A stretch of 21,239 nucleotides of DNA. It comes from a virus. Every line of letters starts with the position of its first letter. Position 1 is the stretch's first letter. Location: positions 1 to 21,239 of the IMG/VR virus record IMGVR_UViG_3300048584_000111; one strand, given 5' to 3'. The translations under genes were made by a program, and so were the position numbers. Below the pieces are notes generated by a model that made no database searches, was not told the DNA's origin, and saw nothing but the letters and a program-made list of their open reading frames with translations. Below, one piece after another: positions 6,022 to 18,640 of the stretch.

Positions 6022-6483
6022 TCAGCGGCTGACGGCGGCGACGGCCGCCATGTAATCGGTGCCCGGATGCGCGGCCTGATGGGCCATCGCCTTGTTGTGG
6101 ATGTCGGCCGAGGCGGGATCGACGGCCATGCCGGCCGGCACGGAGAATTCCACCGCGACGCCCGGACCCTCGCCGGTGTCGAGTGCGCCGAAGCTGATCG
6201 CCGGCTGCGCCGCAAGCAGGCTCTTGAGCAGATCCGCGCCAAGGCCGGTCTTGGTCTCGCCGCCCTCGGCGAACGACACTTCGAGGCGCGCCGCACCGAC
6301 CGGCGACAGCCCGTCGAGCAGCGCCACCGCCTTGTCCTTGAGCGCCGGCAGGAGCCGCCCCTCGGAGACGAGCCTCTCGGCGAAGGCGACGTTGTCGCCA
6401 TGGGCGAGCTCGCGCTCACGCCGGTCGAGATCAGCCGAGCGCGCGTCGAGCGAGGCGGCGTCCGCCGCAGGCCTCTGTGTCAT
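6022..6483 (-). CDS. Scaffold protein from an internal start within the protease gene (Mu gpZ-like)
   Basis: Inside the protease gene and in the same frame, the ATG at 6483 starts MTQRPAADAASLDARSADLDRRERELAH. Just before it is GGAGAGTGAC-ATG, a good ribosome binding site in mid-gene. The product would be 153 residues: a charged helical N-terminus with a coiled-coil look and a C-terminal part shared with the full protease. In Mu, gpI (protease plus scaffold) and gpZ (scaffold alone) are made from one gene in this way, so that the scaffold is in excess and is later cleaved away by the protease. The evidence is the ribosome binding site, the domain boundary (a proline/acid linker ends just before it) and the Mu precedent. 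Confidence 0.7.
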   Translation of the reverse strand: MTQRPAADAASLDARSADLDRRERELAHGDNVAFAERLVSEGRLLPALKDKAVALLDGLSPVGAARLEVSFAEGGETKTGLGADLLKSLLAAQPAISFGALDTGEGPGVAVEFSVPAGMAVDPASADIHNKAMAHQAAHPGTDYMAAVAAVSR

Positions 6484-7212
6484 GTCACTCTCCGTTTCGG
6501 GGGATGGGGCTTCGGGCGCAGCCGCGAAATCGGGCATGCGTCCATGATCGGGCGGGCCGCGGTCAGCCGCATCATCCACCCAGTTGATCGTCCAGGCCGG
6601 CAGCGCCTTGTCCGCCGCGTCGAGGCCGAATTTCTCGATGAAGAAATCGCGCATCGACCGGAACAGCCCGGCGACGTCGCGGAGCGCGGTCGCGTCGGCG
6701 AACTCGAAGGTCGCGACGCCGGCCTCGTCGCCGGCGAACTGCACGGGCCTGAGGCCGCTCACGGCGGGCGCGGCCGCGCCGAGAAATCCGATATGCTTCG
6801 GATAATACTGGCCGGGCCTCGGGTTGTGCGGCGCGTCGGGCGTGAACAGCGACAGCGACACGCGCTTGTATCGCCCCGCCGAAACCGCCTCGCCAAACGC
6901 CGGCTCGATCTCGCCGAGATCGGCGAGGAGCCGCAGCCTGTCCGCATCCCAGCGGAACGCCTTGGCCCATGCAAAGGCGGGGTCATCGGTCTTGGGGTGG
7001 CCGACGACGGCGGGCGCGGGATGAGCCTCGGCGTCATAGCCTTCGGCCAGCGCCTTCAGATCGTCGGACGTGAACGAAATAGGTGCTCCAGCCATCGGCG
7101 TGAACGTGCCAGGCCGGAACACCTCCACGGTGCGGATGGCTTCGCTGTTGGCTACATGGCCGCCTCCCGACATCTCGTCTCGCTCTCCGCGTGAAGGCCC
7201 CTTGGCGGGCAT
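6022..7212 (-). CDS. Prohead protease/scaffold fusion (Mu gpI-like)
   Basis: A 396-residue protein. The N-terminal half shows the marks of Mu gpI proteases: PAVVGHPKTDDPAFAWA (His72), KRVSLSLF (Ser119/Ser121) and KHIGFLGAAAPAVSGL (His140). Residues from about 165 on form a linker rich in proline and acid (to about 243), then the scaffold part. It cleaves the scaffold during head maturation. The start is uncertain: ATG 7212 gives MPAKGPSRG and lacks a clear Shine-Dalgarno sequence, while ATG 7173 (MSGGGHVANS) is closer to where the conserved sequence begins and has GGAG about 13 bases upstream. Its upstream neighbour on the plus strand is the cargo cassette, which separates it from gpG; in Mu the two are adjacent. 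Confidence 0.86.
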   Translation of the reverse strand: MPAKGPSRGERDEMSGGGHVANSEAIRTVEVFRPGTFTPMAGAPISFTSDDLKALAEGYDAEAHPAPAVVGHPKTDDPAFAWAKAFRWDADRLRLLADLGEIEPAFGEAVSAGRYKRVSLSLFTPDAPHNPRPGQYYPKHIGFLGAAAPAVSGLRPVQFAGDEAGVATFEFADATALRDVAGLFRSMRDFFIEKFGLDAADKALPAWTINWVDDAADRGPPDHGRMPDFAAAPEAPSPETESDMTQRPAADAASLDARSADLDRRERELAHGDNVAFAERLVSEGRLLPALKDKAVALLDGLSPVGAARLEVSFAEGGETKTGLGADLLKSLLAAQPAISFGALDTGEGPGVAVEFSVPAGMAVDPASADIHNKAMAHQAAHPGTDYMAAVAAVSR

Positions 7213-7469
7213 TGCACGGTGAGCTTTGAAAGGATTTCACGGGGGCGGTTAGGTGCGAGGTTCACACCGACGGGGCGCAAGGAAAAACGCCGCTTTTCTT
7301 TTGCCGCAACAGGTCGAGGGCGGCAAGCCTGCAGGCGAATGCTGCCATTCACGCCGGACAAGCGATCACTTGTGCATATCCCGGGCTTTTCCACAGGGCA
7401 AATTGCCTGTGTTAACTTCCGCCCCCGGCAATCTGCCTCACAATCTCCGCACAACTGGAGATGATTCGC
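7213..7469. promoter_or_regulatory. Divergent intergenic region between protease and cargo cassette
   Basis: This 257-base gap must hold promoters in both directions: one for the cargo genes, and perhaps the counterpart of the Mu late promoter PI, which in Mu lies between G and I. Two related 11-mers, GGCAAATTGCC (7397-7407, a palindrome around its central A) and GGCAATCTGCC (7427-7437), lie 30 bases apart just upstream of the cargo start and could be operator half-sites. The stretch around 7276-7300 is A- and T-rich compared with its surroundings. I could not identify a convincing -35/-10 pair. Confidence 0.4.
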
Positions 7470-8333
7470 ATGGATAGGCACTTCACGGCGCGTTTCTACA
7501 GAATTTCGCGCCTGAACAATGAACCCACTCTTATCGCGGAAGCCATCGAGCGGATTGAAACCGCTCCGTTGGCGGGCAGACGCCACGATACACGCTCTGG
7601 CTTGTCGATGCGGATGGAGACCGTCGAGCGCCGGAGAGGGGTGATCATTTGCGATATGTGCCGCATCCAAGGCGACGACAAGCCCGGCAATTTCAGGCCA
7701 CACGGAATCGAGCTGCTGGACGTTGATGAGTTGGGGCATGCGTTCAGCTTCGTCTATGATCCCCTGACGGACGTCATCACCATCATGCATGACGAGCGGG
7801 CGCGCATTGGCGCACTACTTGATTATTTGAGCGCGGCCGGATCGATTGGTCCTCTGGCCGCTCACTTGATCGCCGTTCGCGCCAACACCGCCGACCTCGA
7901 AGGCGCGCGCATCAAATCTTTGAAGGTCAAGCTCGCTCGGGCAGATCGTGTGCCGGACTTGTTTCAAAGCGGCAGTGACATTGAACGTGATATGCGAGGT
8001 TTGGCTGCCACTCTGGAAGCCCCCTATATCGAGATCAACGCCTCCATCGGCAGAGAGCGTGGAACCCTCTCGGTGGCGACAGTCAGGCGCGTGGTAAATG
8101 ATCTGCTGCAAGGCAGCGCGCCTGTCGTGGAACTCCAAGTTGGCGTGCAAGGGCAAGATGAAATGCTCGACTTCCTTGATCAGGTGCTTAAGTATACCGA
8201 TACGGTCAACATGCCCGGCGTCGATCAGCATGACAGCGCTGTCTGCGCCGTGCGGATGAGCTTCATTGAGAGGGCCTTTGAGCACCACCGCGACCACATC
8301 CGGTCAATCCACCGCGCGGCAGTCGCTGCATGA
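7470..8333 (+). CDS. Cargo gene 1: soluble protein of unknown function (possible defence component)
   Basis: A 287-residue protein (MDRHFTARFYRISRLNNEP) on the strand opposite to the phage genes. The ATG at 7470 is preferred over 7461 because GGAG (7457-7460) lies nine bases before it but touches the other. The N-terminal half alternates strands and helices, with a single CDMC at 61-64 and the stretch HAFSFVYDPLTDVITIMHDE near residues 90-110; the second half is mixed alpha/beta (KSLKVKLARADRVPDLF; APVVELQVGVQGQDEMLDFLDQVLKY). No membrane segment or signal peptide is visible. The style recalls proteins annotated DUF6731, which is a memory-level resemblance I cannot test. The DNA is more AT-rich than its neighbours. 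It overlaps the membrane-protein gene downstream, so the two are co-translated. Confidence 0.75.
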   Translation: MDRHFTARFYRISRLNNEPTLIAEAIERIETAPLAGRRHDTRSGLSMRMETVERRRGVIICDMCRIQGDDKPGNFRPHGIELLDVDELGHAFSFVYDPLTDVITIMHDERARIGALLDYLSAAGSIGPLAAHLIAVRANTADLEGARIKSLKVKLARADRVPDLFQSGSDIERDMRGLAATLEAPYIEINASIGRERGTLSVATVRRVVNDLLQGSAPVVELQVGVQGQDEMLDFLDQVLKYTDTVNMPGVDQHDSAVCAVRMSFIERAFEHHRDHIRSIHRAAVAA

Positions 8334-8808
8334 CCGCATCTGGGCGTGGCGATACGAATGGGCCGCCCTGGCGGTCGTTGCTGCCGGCTTCGCATATGGT
8401 GCCGACCTCGCGCTCCGCTTCAGTCCCGAGGGCGGCTGGAAGATTGACGCCCTTTATGCAGGCATCCTTGGTTGGGCTTCTATACAGGCGGGCGCTTTGC
8501 TGGCCGTCTACACCTTTGTCGCCGCCGGCGGGAATAGCTTCATCCGTGCGATAAGCCACACCGATGCGATCTCACGGTTTCACGCCTATGTGCTCCGGAC
8601 GACCTATCTGAGCCTCGCGGTGGCGGCGGCCGCGCTCATTCTTTCAGTGACAAACCCGGTGCCGCAACCTGACTTCGCGAGCAGGGCGCTGTTTGCGCTC
8701 TGGTACGGGGCCTGCACCTACATGACGCTGCGCATGTTTTCGATTGTTCGGATATTGCACACCATCGACCGTGCGGGGCTGCGCCGGCAGTCTATCAACC
8801 CGCTTTAA
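8278..8808 (+). CDS. Cargo gene 2: four-helix inner-membrane protein
   Basis: About 176 residues from a TTG at 8278, which has GAGAGGG three bases upstream; a TTG at 8266 in the same frame is an alternative and no ATG is available. It overlaps the end of the previous gene by 56 bases. Four hydrophobic segments are visible at roughly residues 28-46, 58-84, 108-126 and 134-157, separated by short polar loops (NSFIRAISHTDAISRFHAYVLR between the second and third). The C-terminus is basic (RAGLRRQSINPL), which suggests it faces the cytoplasm. I recognise no family. A soluble protein coupled to a small four-helix membrane protein is a common layout for phage exclusion and abortive-infection pairs, but no catalytic motif is seen. 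Confidence 0.7.
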   Translation: MSTTATTSGQSTARQSLHDRIWAWRYEWAALAVVAAGFAYGADLALRFSPEGGWKIDALYAGILGWASIQAGALLAVYTFVAAGGNSFIRAISHTDAISRFHAYVLRTTYLSLAVAAAALILSVTNPVPQPDFASRALFALWYGACTYMTLRMFSIVRILHTIDRAGLRRQSINPL

Positions 8809-8813
8809 TTCTG

Positions 8814-8842
8814 ACGCCCATCTGACGCCGCGTGGCGGGCGT
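8814..8842 (+). terminator. Possible hairpin after the cargo cassette
   Basis: ACGCCC (8814-8819) can pair with GGGCGT (8837-8842), with an inner GCC-GCGT-GGC stem. It begins six bases after the TAA of the membrane-protein gene, where a terminator is expected to stop transcription running into the convergent gpG gene. There is no T-run after it, so it is not a classical intrinsic terminator. Confidence 0.35.
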
Positions 8843-8904
8843 TCGCCATCGCGCCGGTAGGGGCATGGCCTGAGGCCTCTCGCGGGCGCTCCTGCGCCGC
8901 CGCA

Positions 8905-9474
8905 TCAACGCCCCTCGACCGCCAGCCATTGGGCCACAGCCCGGCGCGCCGCTGTCTCGTCCTTCGCGCCGAAACCGACGATGGGCCGTGGCGGAAGCGT
9001 CACCTGCCTTGCCATGACGACGCCGCCCTTATGCTTGTTGCTCGGCTTGCCGACGACAAGCCCGCCGCGTGAGCGCCCGATATTCGCGCCGCCCATGGGG
9101 ATCGCCAGCATCTTGCCATTCTTCGGCTTGATCACCGCGCCGTAATGCTGCGCGGCGGCATAGATGGTGTTGACGCCGACACGCAGCGTCCGGCCTGACA
9201 CCTGCCATGCGCCGGACTGCATGAGCCGACCAGACCGGCGCAGGATCGGCCCGCGCGCGCCGCGCAACAGCACGGTGAGCGGCTTGAGCGGTGCCCATTT
9301 CCGGCCGTCTGGATCTCTGCCGGTCTCGAACCGCCTGTTCTGCTCGCGCAGGAGCGCCCCGCCGATAATCTTGAGACCGCCAGACGGATTGCGCGCCTTG
9401 GCCGAAAGCTCCGCCAGCACGCTCTCGGCGCGGGCGAGAGAGGCGGCATCCAGGCGCATTCGGATGTCGGACAT
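8905..9474 (-). CDS. Virion morphogenesis protein (Mu gpG-like, tail completion)
   Basis: A 189-residue protein (MSDIRMRLDAASLARAESVLAEL). It shows the family pattern 'I-G-G-A-L-L-R-E-Q-N-R-R-F-E-T-G-R-D-P-D-G-R-K-W-A-P-L', then ILRRSGRLMQSGAWQVSGRTLRVGVNTIYAAAQHYGAVI and a C-terminal LPPRPIVGFGAKD, all typical of the phage virion morphogenesis family that includes Mu gpG and P2 gpS. It is needed to complete and join tails to heads. It follows the MuF gene after about 100 bases that hold a strong hairpin. On the left it is cut off from the protease gene by the plus-strand cassette. Confidence 0.9.
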   Translation of the reverse strand: MSDIRMRLDAASLARAESVLAELSAKARNPSGGLKIIGGALLREQNRRFETGRDPDGRKWAPLKPLTVLLRGARGPILRRSGRLMQSGAWQVSGRTLRVGVNTIYAAAQHYGAVIKPKNGKMLAIPMGGANIGRSRGGLVVGKPSNKHKGGVVMARQVTLPPRPIVGFGAKDETAARRAVAQWLAVEGR

Positions 9475-9553: not shown

Positions 9554-9578
9554 AGGGCGGTCGGTCAGTGACCGCCCT
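9554..9578. terminator. Strong perfect hairpin at the MuF stop codon
   Basis: AGGGCGGTC (9554-9562) and GACCGCCCT (9570-9578) are perfectly complementary across a seven-base loop. The repeat overlaps the TAG stop of the MuF gene (9579-9577). On the plus strand it is followed by ATTTCGTTTC; on the minus strand, the transcribed direction here, there is no U-run. It could lower expression of gpG and later genes, protect the 3' end of a processed mRNA, or stop antisense transcripts. Confidence 0.55.
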
Positions 9579-10848
9579 ATTTCGTTTCGCGACGCCACAG
9601 CATCACGCCGGAACGTTGTCGGGCAAGATACGCTTGGTCCGGCTTGCCACCGTCCCCCTTTGTTGGGTTGAACGCCGTCGCGCCCTCCCATCCGATGGCA
9701 GACCATGCAAAGGCGGCGAACTCGGGACTGTCGCTGGAAAAACGCAGATACCTGCGGACAAGCCGTGGGCGACCGTCCGGCCCGTTCGCCCAATCAATCC
9801 AGATTTCGTCAGGGTCGCGGATCGCTTCGGCCAGCCTCAGCACATGCTGGTCACGAACGCCCTTTCCGAGTTTCAATCGCCCCTGGCCGGTGCGGAACAG
9901 GGCGTCACTGATGGCGAGCGCGTGACCGGCGGGATCGCGCCAGATCGCCGCGGCATCGCGGCTAGCGCCAAACTCGGCCAGGAATGCGTCGACATACTCG
10001 TTGGTCGACAGCCCCTCCGGCATCAGCCGCGATGACAAAGGGCGGCTGTTGATCGGCAAGGCTGGGGGCGGGAGGACAGGGCCGATGCTGGGCTTGAGCG
10101 GGTTTTGGAGCTGTGGCGGCACGAGGCCGCGCGCCCAGTCGCGCCCCGGCGCATGCGCCCAGCCGAAGCCGACGCCATTGGGCACGTTCACCAGCTCGTC
10201 CGTCCTCGGGTCGCGCACGTCGCGGGTGCCCAGATCCGGCGCGACCCCCGGTTTCAGGTCCGTATCGGCCAGGTCGTCATCGGTCAGCGACTCGACGCCG
10301 CAGGAACAGAACCAGTCATTGGGTGGGTAGTGCGTCTCCCAGAACGGATCATCCCATGCCAGGATCAGCCCATCCCATGTGACATGCTGCTCGCGCGGGT
10401 CTTTCGGCACCCGGTAATAGGCGTGGCGGTAGCGCCACCATTTATAAACCTTGACCGCATCAGGGTCGGTCATCTGCTTGTATCGGCCCGCCGCATAGGA
10501 GGTTGCGAGGTTGGTCTCGTAGATCACGCGGGTGCGCCATGCGCGTCCCTTCGCCGTGCCCTCGCCGGTCCAGCCGGTCCAGCCATTGCGGGCGACGATC
10601 TCCTCGAAGCTCGCCCGGAACATCTCCAGCGTCGATTTGCCCGCGATAGCCTTGTCGATCTCCCCCAGAAGATCCGAAAGCAGCGCCTCCTTGGTCGCGC
10701 CGGCGACCACGGCGGCACGATCATGCGAGCGCCCGTGCAGATCTCGCCAATGTTTCGTCGGGAGCGCGATCTTCTGGCGGAAATAGTCAATCGCCTCCTG
10801 GAAGGGGACGCCGAAATCGCCTTGTCCCTCCCCGGCGAATGCGTTCAT
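9577..10848 (-). CDS. MuF minor head protein (Mu gp30-like) fused to a C-terminal nuclease-like domain
   Basis: A 423-residue protein. Residues 1 to about 190 are the MuF head morphogenesis domain (AIDYFRQKIALPT; YETNLATSYAAGRY; REQHVTWDGLILAWDDPFWETHYPPNDWFCSCGVESL). A proline-rich linker (about 246-275) leads to a C-terminal domain (about 280-423) with AIWRDPAGHALAISDALFR, LAEAIRDPDEIWIDW, RLVRRYLRF, GWEGATAFNP and a final RSGVMLWRRE. This pattern fits the PBECR group (phage barnase-EndoU-colicin-RelE-like nuclease), which occurs at the end of MuF proteins and in polyvalent phage proteins. The head part is an internal capsid component near the portal; the tail domain may be an RNase or toxin injected with the DNA. 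His309 is a candidate active-site residue (inference). It overlaps the portal gene by four bases. Confidence 0.87.
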   Translation of the reverse strand: MNAFAGEGQGDFGVPFQEAIDYFRQKIALPTKHWRDLHGRSHDRAAVVAGATKEALLSDLLGEIDKAIAGKSTLEMFRASFEEIVARNGWTGWTGEGTAKGRAWRTRVIYETNLATSYAAGRYKQMTDPDAVKVYKWWRYRHAYYRVPKDPREQHVTWDGLILAWDDPFWETHYPPNDWFCSCGVESLTDDDLADTDLKPGVAPDLGTRDVRDPRTDELVNVPNGVGFGWAHAPGRDWARGLVPPQLQNPLKPSIGPVLPPPALPINSRPLSSRLMPEGLSTNEYVDAFLAEFGASRDAAAIWRDPAGHALAISDALFRTGQGRLKLGKGVRDQHVLRLAEAIRDPDEIWIDWANGPDGRPRLVRRYLRFSSDSPEFAAFAWSAIGWEGATAFNPTKGDGGKPDQAYLARQRSGVMLWRRETK

Positions 10849-18106: not shown

Positions 18107-18640
18107 ATGATCGAGACCAAGCTGCTTCAGGAGGTGATTGAGGCGGTCGGAGGCATCAAGGGGGTATCCGACGCCGTAGATGTCGCCAAGAAGCTCAAGG
18201 ACCTCTTCGCCAAACCGGATAGAGGCGGTGCCGCCACGCCCGCGCAGCAACAGATATTGCAGCTGATCGGCGAACTTTCGACAGAGGCTGTATCGGCGAA
18301 GCTGGACGCGGCGTCGGCGCGCGCAGATCTCTTGAAGCTCCAGCGCGAGCTGGACGCGATACGTCAGTTTAAGGATTGCTCGAAAGATTATGCCCTTGTG
18401 GAACTGCGGACCGGGAGCTTTGCCTATAAAAAGAAGAGCGCGGTTGGCGGCAACGCCCCAGCGCCCAGCTATTGCGCCCATTGTTTCGAGCAGTCGCAAC
18501 GGGTTGTGACGCTCCAGCTCAAGAAACCGGATTTCAACGTCGACACGTTTCACTGCACGGCGTGCGGCTCTGAGGTCTTCCAGACGAACGACGAGCGTCC
18601 GCGATACATCAGTGTGAAGCAGAACCGGTCGCTCGACTGA
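18107..18640 (+). CDS. Cargo gene: helical protein with C-terminal zinc ribbon
   Basis: A 177-residue protein on the strand opposite to the phage genes. Residues 1-35 (MIETKLLQEVIEAVGGIKGVSDAVDVAKKLKDLF) and 50-95 are amphipathic helices, the second a likely coiled coil. The C-terminal part holds YCAHC (about 126-130) and HCTACGSEVFQT (about 155-166), a four-cysteine zinc ribbon, with beta strands between (RVVTLQLKKPDFNVDTF). The DNA is visibly more AT-rich than the flanks. Only a weak GGGGG precedes the ATG. The stop lies two bases from the stop of the convergent HTH gene. It looks like a moron with its own promoter; the function is unknown. The opposite strand is also open, but reads arginine-rich. 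Confidence 0.74.
   Translation: MIETKLLQEVIEAVGGIKGVSDAVDVAKKLKDLFAKPDRGGAATPAQQQILQLIGELSTEAVSAKLDAASARADLLKLQRELDAIRQFKDCSKDYALVELRTGSFAYKKKSAVGGNAPAPSYCAHCFEQSQRVVTLQLKKPDFNVDTFHCTACGSEVFQTNDERPRYISVKQNRSLD

Follow-up and report, generated by a model that had tools for sequence, protein, structure and literature searches.

A pair of overlapping plus-strand genes in the head operon of a Mu-like phage probably encodes a Rex-like two-component exclusion (abortive-infection) system that the phage carries as a moron. We infer this function because of the predicted fold of the first protein, the order of the two genes, their constant pairing, a lambda-like synteny in one relative and the location of the cassette in a defence hotspot.

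An overlapping gene pair in the head operon of a Mu-like phage

The window (the whole stretch of DNA that was analysed, 21,239 nt, positions 1 to 21,239 of IMGVR_UViG_3300048584_000111) covers the head region of a Mu-like phage in which Pfam names the portal protein (Portal_Mu), gpF (Phage_Mu_F) and gpG (Phage_tail_S), all on the minus strand. The cassette and its surroundings are organized as follows, with L002 denoting the closest relative:

6022..7212, minus strand: protease/scaffold protein (gpI-like), left boundary of the slot; no Pfam hit, assigned from its synteny beside the major head protein in relatives
7213..7469, divergent genes on both sides: protease-Orf1 intergenic region, defined by position
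7213..8904: insertion slot between gpG and the protease, defined by the census of 62 Mu-like phages and by its contents
7457..7460, plus strand: ribosome-binding site of Orf1 (GGAG), 9 nt upstream of the ATG at 7470, conserved in L002
7470..8333, plus strand: Orf1, 287 aa, soluble, DUF6731 (via L002), predicted RexA-like sensor
8268..8274, plus strand: ribosome-binding site of Orf2 (GAGAGGG), within Orf1, identical in L002
8278..8808, plus strand: Orf2, 176 aa, four-helix membrane protein, predicted RexB-like effector
8905..9474, minus strand: gpG-like virion morphogenesis protein (Phage_tail_S, E 2.7e-19), right boundary of the slot

The first-pass annotation had described two overlapping plus-strand genes between gpG and the protease, and both ORFs are present there. 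They are not chance ORFs, because L002 carries both genes at the same site with 84–87% identity and distant homologues exist. The ATG of Orf1 at 7470 corresponds to the residue at which its homologues start. For Orf2 a TTG start inside Orf1 had been proposed; the TTG start and the overlap stand, with the TTG at 8278 preferred over the in-frame TTG at 8266, which is less well placed relative to the ribosome-binding site. The stretch from the Shine–Dalgarno motif to the TTG is base-for-base the same in L002, and the overlap amounts to 56 nt (start at 8278) or 68 nt (start at 8266). The cassette is also more AT-rich than its flanks, as had been noted, with a GC content of 0.58 and 0.62 and a GC3 of 0.68 and 0.74 in Orf1 and Orf2, respectively, compared with 0.65–0.70 and 0.78–0.87 in the neighbouring head genes. 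The view that the operon is otherwise entirely on the minus strand is inexact, given another plus-strand gene at 18107-18640. This AT-rich gene matches phrog_1244 (E 4e-22), has a possible C-terminal zinc ribbon and is a second moron candidate. Among the head genes, the gpF-like protein (9577-10848, minus strand) has a PBECR2 nuclease-like domain at its C-terminus (E 6.7e-27), which makes it a fusion of a MuF protein with a toxin-like domain.

Because the pair lies on the strand opposite to the late operon, its expression in a lysogen is possible. The intergenic region at 7213..7469 is expected to hold the promoter of the cassette together with a late promoter similar to P_I of Mu; a scan of this region for the sigma-70 consensus gave no promoter match, and alphaproteobacterial promoters may differ from that consensus.

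The slot between gpG and the protease is a defence hotspot

The comparison covered 62 distinct Mu-like phages in which gpF, gpG and the protease follow in this order, and an insert was defined as at least 600 bp. The gpG–protease junction was empty in 45 phages, carried an insert in 15 and was intermediate in two, whereas three further junctions within this operon carried such inserts in 2/62, 0/59 and 1/60 cases. An empty slot is the usual state among the relatives, and the pair is not part of a core operon. In L003 (5001-6290) the cassette is half replaced: codons 1–90 of Orf1 and the last 47 codons of Orf2 flank foreign DNA. This foreign DNA contains ORFs on the opposite strand, one of them HTH-like, so that turnover of the slot is seen directly. 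The same slot in L005 (4405-6000) is occupied by a different two-gene cassette that encodes a 66 aa protein with a single transmembrane segment and a 346 aa soluble protein. The motif GG..IQ..RD..I occurs at the end of the first and at the start of the second of these proteins, which suggests that the two may assemble together.

Among the occupants of the slot in other phages are PD-Lambda-4 A over its full length (E 3e-236), PDC-S42 (E 3e-80), a SIR2-like gene whose partner is PD-T7-4-like, a GmrSD-N/NsnA-like protein accompanied by HEPN and PIN genes, and a large protein with TPR repeats. Overall, the gpG–protease slot of Mu-like phages is a defence hotspot. Single unnamed genes for soluble or membrane proteins are found in the same slot at L032:7350-8231, L039:7888-8319, L083:7767-8249 and L077:7746-8213 and are candidate defence genes.

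Phage Mu has four late promoters, one of which drives gene I (PMC4461284). The slot may correspondingly be a boundary between transcription units, where genes would enter without cutting the head operon. The location between gpG and the protease could also be taken to mean that the two proteins are virion or assembly factors with a late head-related function that came to lie in the head operon by chance. The opposite strand, the different base composition, the absence from 45 of the 62 relatives and the presence of homologues at unrelated sites and in bacterial chromosomes leave this explanation with a practically negligible probability; neither protein matched a virion family in the profile searches.

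The two genes are conserved as a unit

Orf1 and Orf2 form a mobile module that is conserved as a unit. All 17 intact loci with a DUF6731-type gene (the window and 16 others) have a membrane gene that overlaps this gene or lies directly downstream, compared with a chance background of 3 such neighbours among 181 ORFs of 250–340 aa at unrelated loci. The partner genes encode 118–178 aa, with 3–4 predicted transmembrane segments in all partner loci. The loci span Mu-like, other tailed and tailless phages as well as bacterial chromosomes, and the sequence identity of homologues beyond L002 is about 15–29%. The two genes had been annotated as a pair, and these loci bear that out: homologues are not always single genes.

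An Orf1 profile search of 397 genomes (the order to which a Rhodoblastus MAG with a related prophage belongs) identified two distant homologues, each with an overlapping Orf2-like gene downstream and one located beside an integrase-like gene. Scans of viral sequences yielded L118, L124 and L129, all of them paired, and the pairs of L118 and L124 lie directly before terminase genes. A search for PF20505 (DUF6731) in 299 Pseudomonadota genomes gave four loci, each with a gene for four transmembrane segments after it. In Pseudomonas AUS531phi the partner is 118 aa long as annotated, with three predicted transmembrane segments, and the gene order is cI repressor, DUF6731-like gene and membrane gene, as in lambda. 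Further paired named phages are a tailless Vibrio phage, Aeribacillus AP45, a Listeria phage, Streptococcus Javan1 (where the partner gene is unannotated) and Escherichia vB_EcoS-733R5, in which the pair (L138:1483-2871) lies between antiterminator Q and the holin. The annotation of the RexA-like gene of vB_EcoS-733R5 as a portal protein is apparently an error. The toxin-carrying phage cdtI gave a further match that was left out of the locus set.

When Orf1 was searched directly against named phages and plasmids, no match resulted, and a first scan of genome contigs was equally negative. A PF20505 search of 385 Alphaproteobacteria was likewise blank, implying that the sub-branch of the window is rare or too divergent for the profile. 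Weak genome matches (L112-L117) were taken as false, with L112 and L113 corresponding to NusA-like and HslU-like frames and the rest showing similar short matches.

Orf2-type genes persist at two places where Orf1 is decayed or absent. In a single phage lineage (L125-L127) Orf2 is kept after a remnant of Orf1 (L125:4850-5462), and at L128:4989-5468 it is kept beside a transposase-like gene with Orf1 decayed or absent. The Orf2-type membrane protein may be useful, or harmless, on its own.

Sequence family and predicted fold of Orf1

The DUF6731 model (PF20505, gathering cut-off 27) recognised Orf1 of L002 with 28.8 bits (E 1.2e-6) and the more distant homologue L106 with 32.7 bits. DUF6731 was not reported by hmmscan for Orf1 of the window, which is 84% identical along its length to the passing L002 protein, and neither Orf1 nor Orf2 of the window had a profile match. 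Through L002, the membership of Orf1 in DUF6731, which the first-pass annotation had suggested with reservation, is supported at the level of sequence. The Pfam model of lambda RexA (PF15969), which finds lambda RexA itself with E 1e-97, matched neither Orf1 of the window nor the relatives tested; by profile, Orf1 is filed under DUF6731 and not under the lambda RexA family. A literature search found no paper on DUF6731.

Confidence in the structural model of Orf1 is low (pLDDT 58, pTM 0.50, five sequences). A comparison of this model by VIA-align placed lambda RexA (8TWQ) first, with Z 10.8 and an rmsd of 3.2 over 139 residues at the stated pLDDT of 58. The next matches were largely CENP-N/Chl4 and Iml3 (Z up to 6.6), followed by RdgC (2owy, Z 5.8) at the same level as some unrelated folds, e.g., phosphoglucomutase. 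RdgC, Iml3 and Chl4 are relatives reported for RexA (PMC11077077). An hhalign comparison of the 16-member Orf1 family with RexA was collinear over 143 columns (E 2.4e-4, probability 44%), and the score climbed as the alignment was widened (16, 22, 24, 35), against a score of 13 (E 0.5) for a capsid control with the 14-member version of the family. A match to V-ATPase subunit C (hmmsearch) was gone with the wider alignment.

RdgC belongs to the same DNA-clamp fold class as RexA and was the best Foldseek match to the Orf1 model (E 8e-6). Orf1 might accordingly be read as a DNA-binding protein of the RdgC/RexA fold that tunes expression or recombination and thereby modulates the lysogeny switch, with Orf2 as its membrane anchor; lambda RexA alone biases the lytic switch (PMC11077077). 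Several observations make such a modulator very unlikely: RexA scores about 5 Z units above RdgC in VIA-align, the pair is missing from most relatives, its slot is shared with recognised defence genes, and its location is the head operon rather than a regulatory region. RdgC itself is a chromosomal housekeeping gene without a membrane partner.

The membrane protein Orf2

The model of Orf2 consists of four long helices, and its fold search returned generic helix bundles only and was not used as evidence. The PADLOC RexB profile gave weak matches to three partners only (L119, L121 and L122, E 2e-4 to 4e-3) and none to Orf2 of the window. An hhalign comparison with RexB gave E 3e-4 to 3e-3 over 45–66 columns.

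Temperate phages commonly encode small membrane proteins that act in exclusion. It is conceivable on these general grounds that Orf2 alone stops the injection of DNA at the membrane, with Orf1 as an accessory, and the Orf2-like genes that persist without an intact Orf1 in two phage lineages are consistent with this. Superinfection exclusion by such an entry block is nevertheless extremely improbable, as Orf1 is kept in every intact locus and the RexA fold suggests that DNA is detected inside the cell.

Comparison with known exclusion systems

The pair appears to be a divergent variant of the known RexAB kind. Lambda RexA/RexB (PF15969/PF15968) have the same gene order, the same combination of a soluble and a four-helix membrane protein and similar sizes (279 and 144 aa, compared with 287 and 176 aa). 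They differ in that Orf1 falls into DUF6731 without a RexA Pfam match, in that 15 bp lie between rexA and rexB whereas Orf1 and Orf2 overlap, and in that the lambda genes lie behind cI (a placement that is not universal) whereas the pair of the window belongs to the late region, where it lies within the head operon but on the opposite strand. RexABpp of Pseudomonas putida prophage P1 (PP_5643/PP_5644) is likewise a prophage-borne pair of a protein with a RexA-like model and a four-transmembrane protein that BLAST does not recognise (PMC12894663), although its prophage is cryptic and its location is not known as a Mu-like head operon. There, RexA binds DNA, RexB oligomerises, and overexpression of RexA leads to RexB-dependent growth arrest and membrane leakage, with no interaction between RexBpp and RexApp by two-hybrid (PMC12894663). 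The actinophage pairs Sbash gp30/gp31, CarolAnn gp44/gp43 and Butters gp30/gp31 also combine RexA-like and RexB-like proteins in temperate phages that exclude other phages (PMC11077077, PMC12894663). Compared by description, their RexA proteins are longer where a length is stated (Sbash 372, CarolAnn 370 residues), and the CarolAnn genes lie at the immunity region.

Two further systems were compared. Kiwa (KwaA/KwaB) also joins a soluble and a membrane protein in one operon. It had been offered as a comparison, wrongly: PADLOC scans gave no match to the KwaA or KwaB profiles, and the membrane gene (KwaA) comes first in Kiwa whereas the soluble gene comes first in the window. The overlapping exclusion genes of phage Fc02 (PMC9936078), which is Mu-like too, were set aside, since the active gene product is small (7.9 kDa) and is encoded in the regulatory region.

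By analogy with lambda RexAB and P. putida RexABpp, Orf1 would be a soluble protein of the RexA fold, probably a DNA-binding dimer, that responds to the DNA or the replication complexes of an infecting phage. Triggered Orf1 would activate Orf2, a predicted four-helix inner-membrane protein, which would oligomerise and permeabilise or depolarise the membrane, so that growth of the infected cell stops and a second phage is not produced. Through the gene overlap, sensor and effector would be made in a fixed ratio. Counting against the Rex reading are the weak model of Orf1, the modest hhalign support, the position of the pair away from a repressor and the negative two-hybrid result for RexBpp and RexApp.

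The roles of the two proteins could also be reversed, with Orf1 as a toxic antiviral effector that Orf2 restrains until infection. Such an arrangement is described for gp30/gp31 of mycobacteriophage Butters (discussed in PMC12894663), and it is consistent with the constant pairing and with the survival of Orf2 at L125 and L128, as expected of an antidote. RexABpp, CarolAnn and Sbash, the three other Rex-like systems set beside lambda in that paper, use the membrane protein as the effector; moreover, nothing in Orf1 is enzyme-like and its predicted fold is a DNA-binding one, so that a reversed pair is unlikely.

The preferred Rex-like reading agrees with the first-pass annotation in its main points. 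A prophage-borne defence or exclusion pair is supported by the pairing, the variable slot and the recognised defence genes that occupy this slot in other phages, and a sensor inside the cell with an actor in the membrane fits the fold and the gene pair when these are read as Rex-type. The suggestion of an undescribed system holds in part: the branch is divergent, but a system that appears RexAB-like is not wholly undescribed. It is possible, if rather doubtful, that DUF6731 proteins and their four-helix partners make up a class of two-component exclusion systems that is both large and separate and is present in chromosomes, in a tailless phage and in tailed phages that infect Gram-negative as well as Gram-positive hosts. 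In such a class the triggers of the sensors would differ from that of lambda RexA and the membrane mechanism of the effector would be one not yet described.

Implications for Rex-like systems

Some 70 years after RexAB became known, only five Rex-like systems are counted as described (PMC12894663). If the DUF6731 pairs are Rex-like, the kind would be far more widespread than profile searches show, because none of the members tested is recognised by the RexA models of PADLOC and Pfam. With inserts in about one quarter of the relatives, several of them unnamed, the gpG–protease slot is a ready place to seek new defence genes. The DUF6731 pairs, if Rex-like, would also provide many natural variants for finding the trigger by which RexA detects infection.
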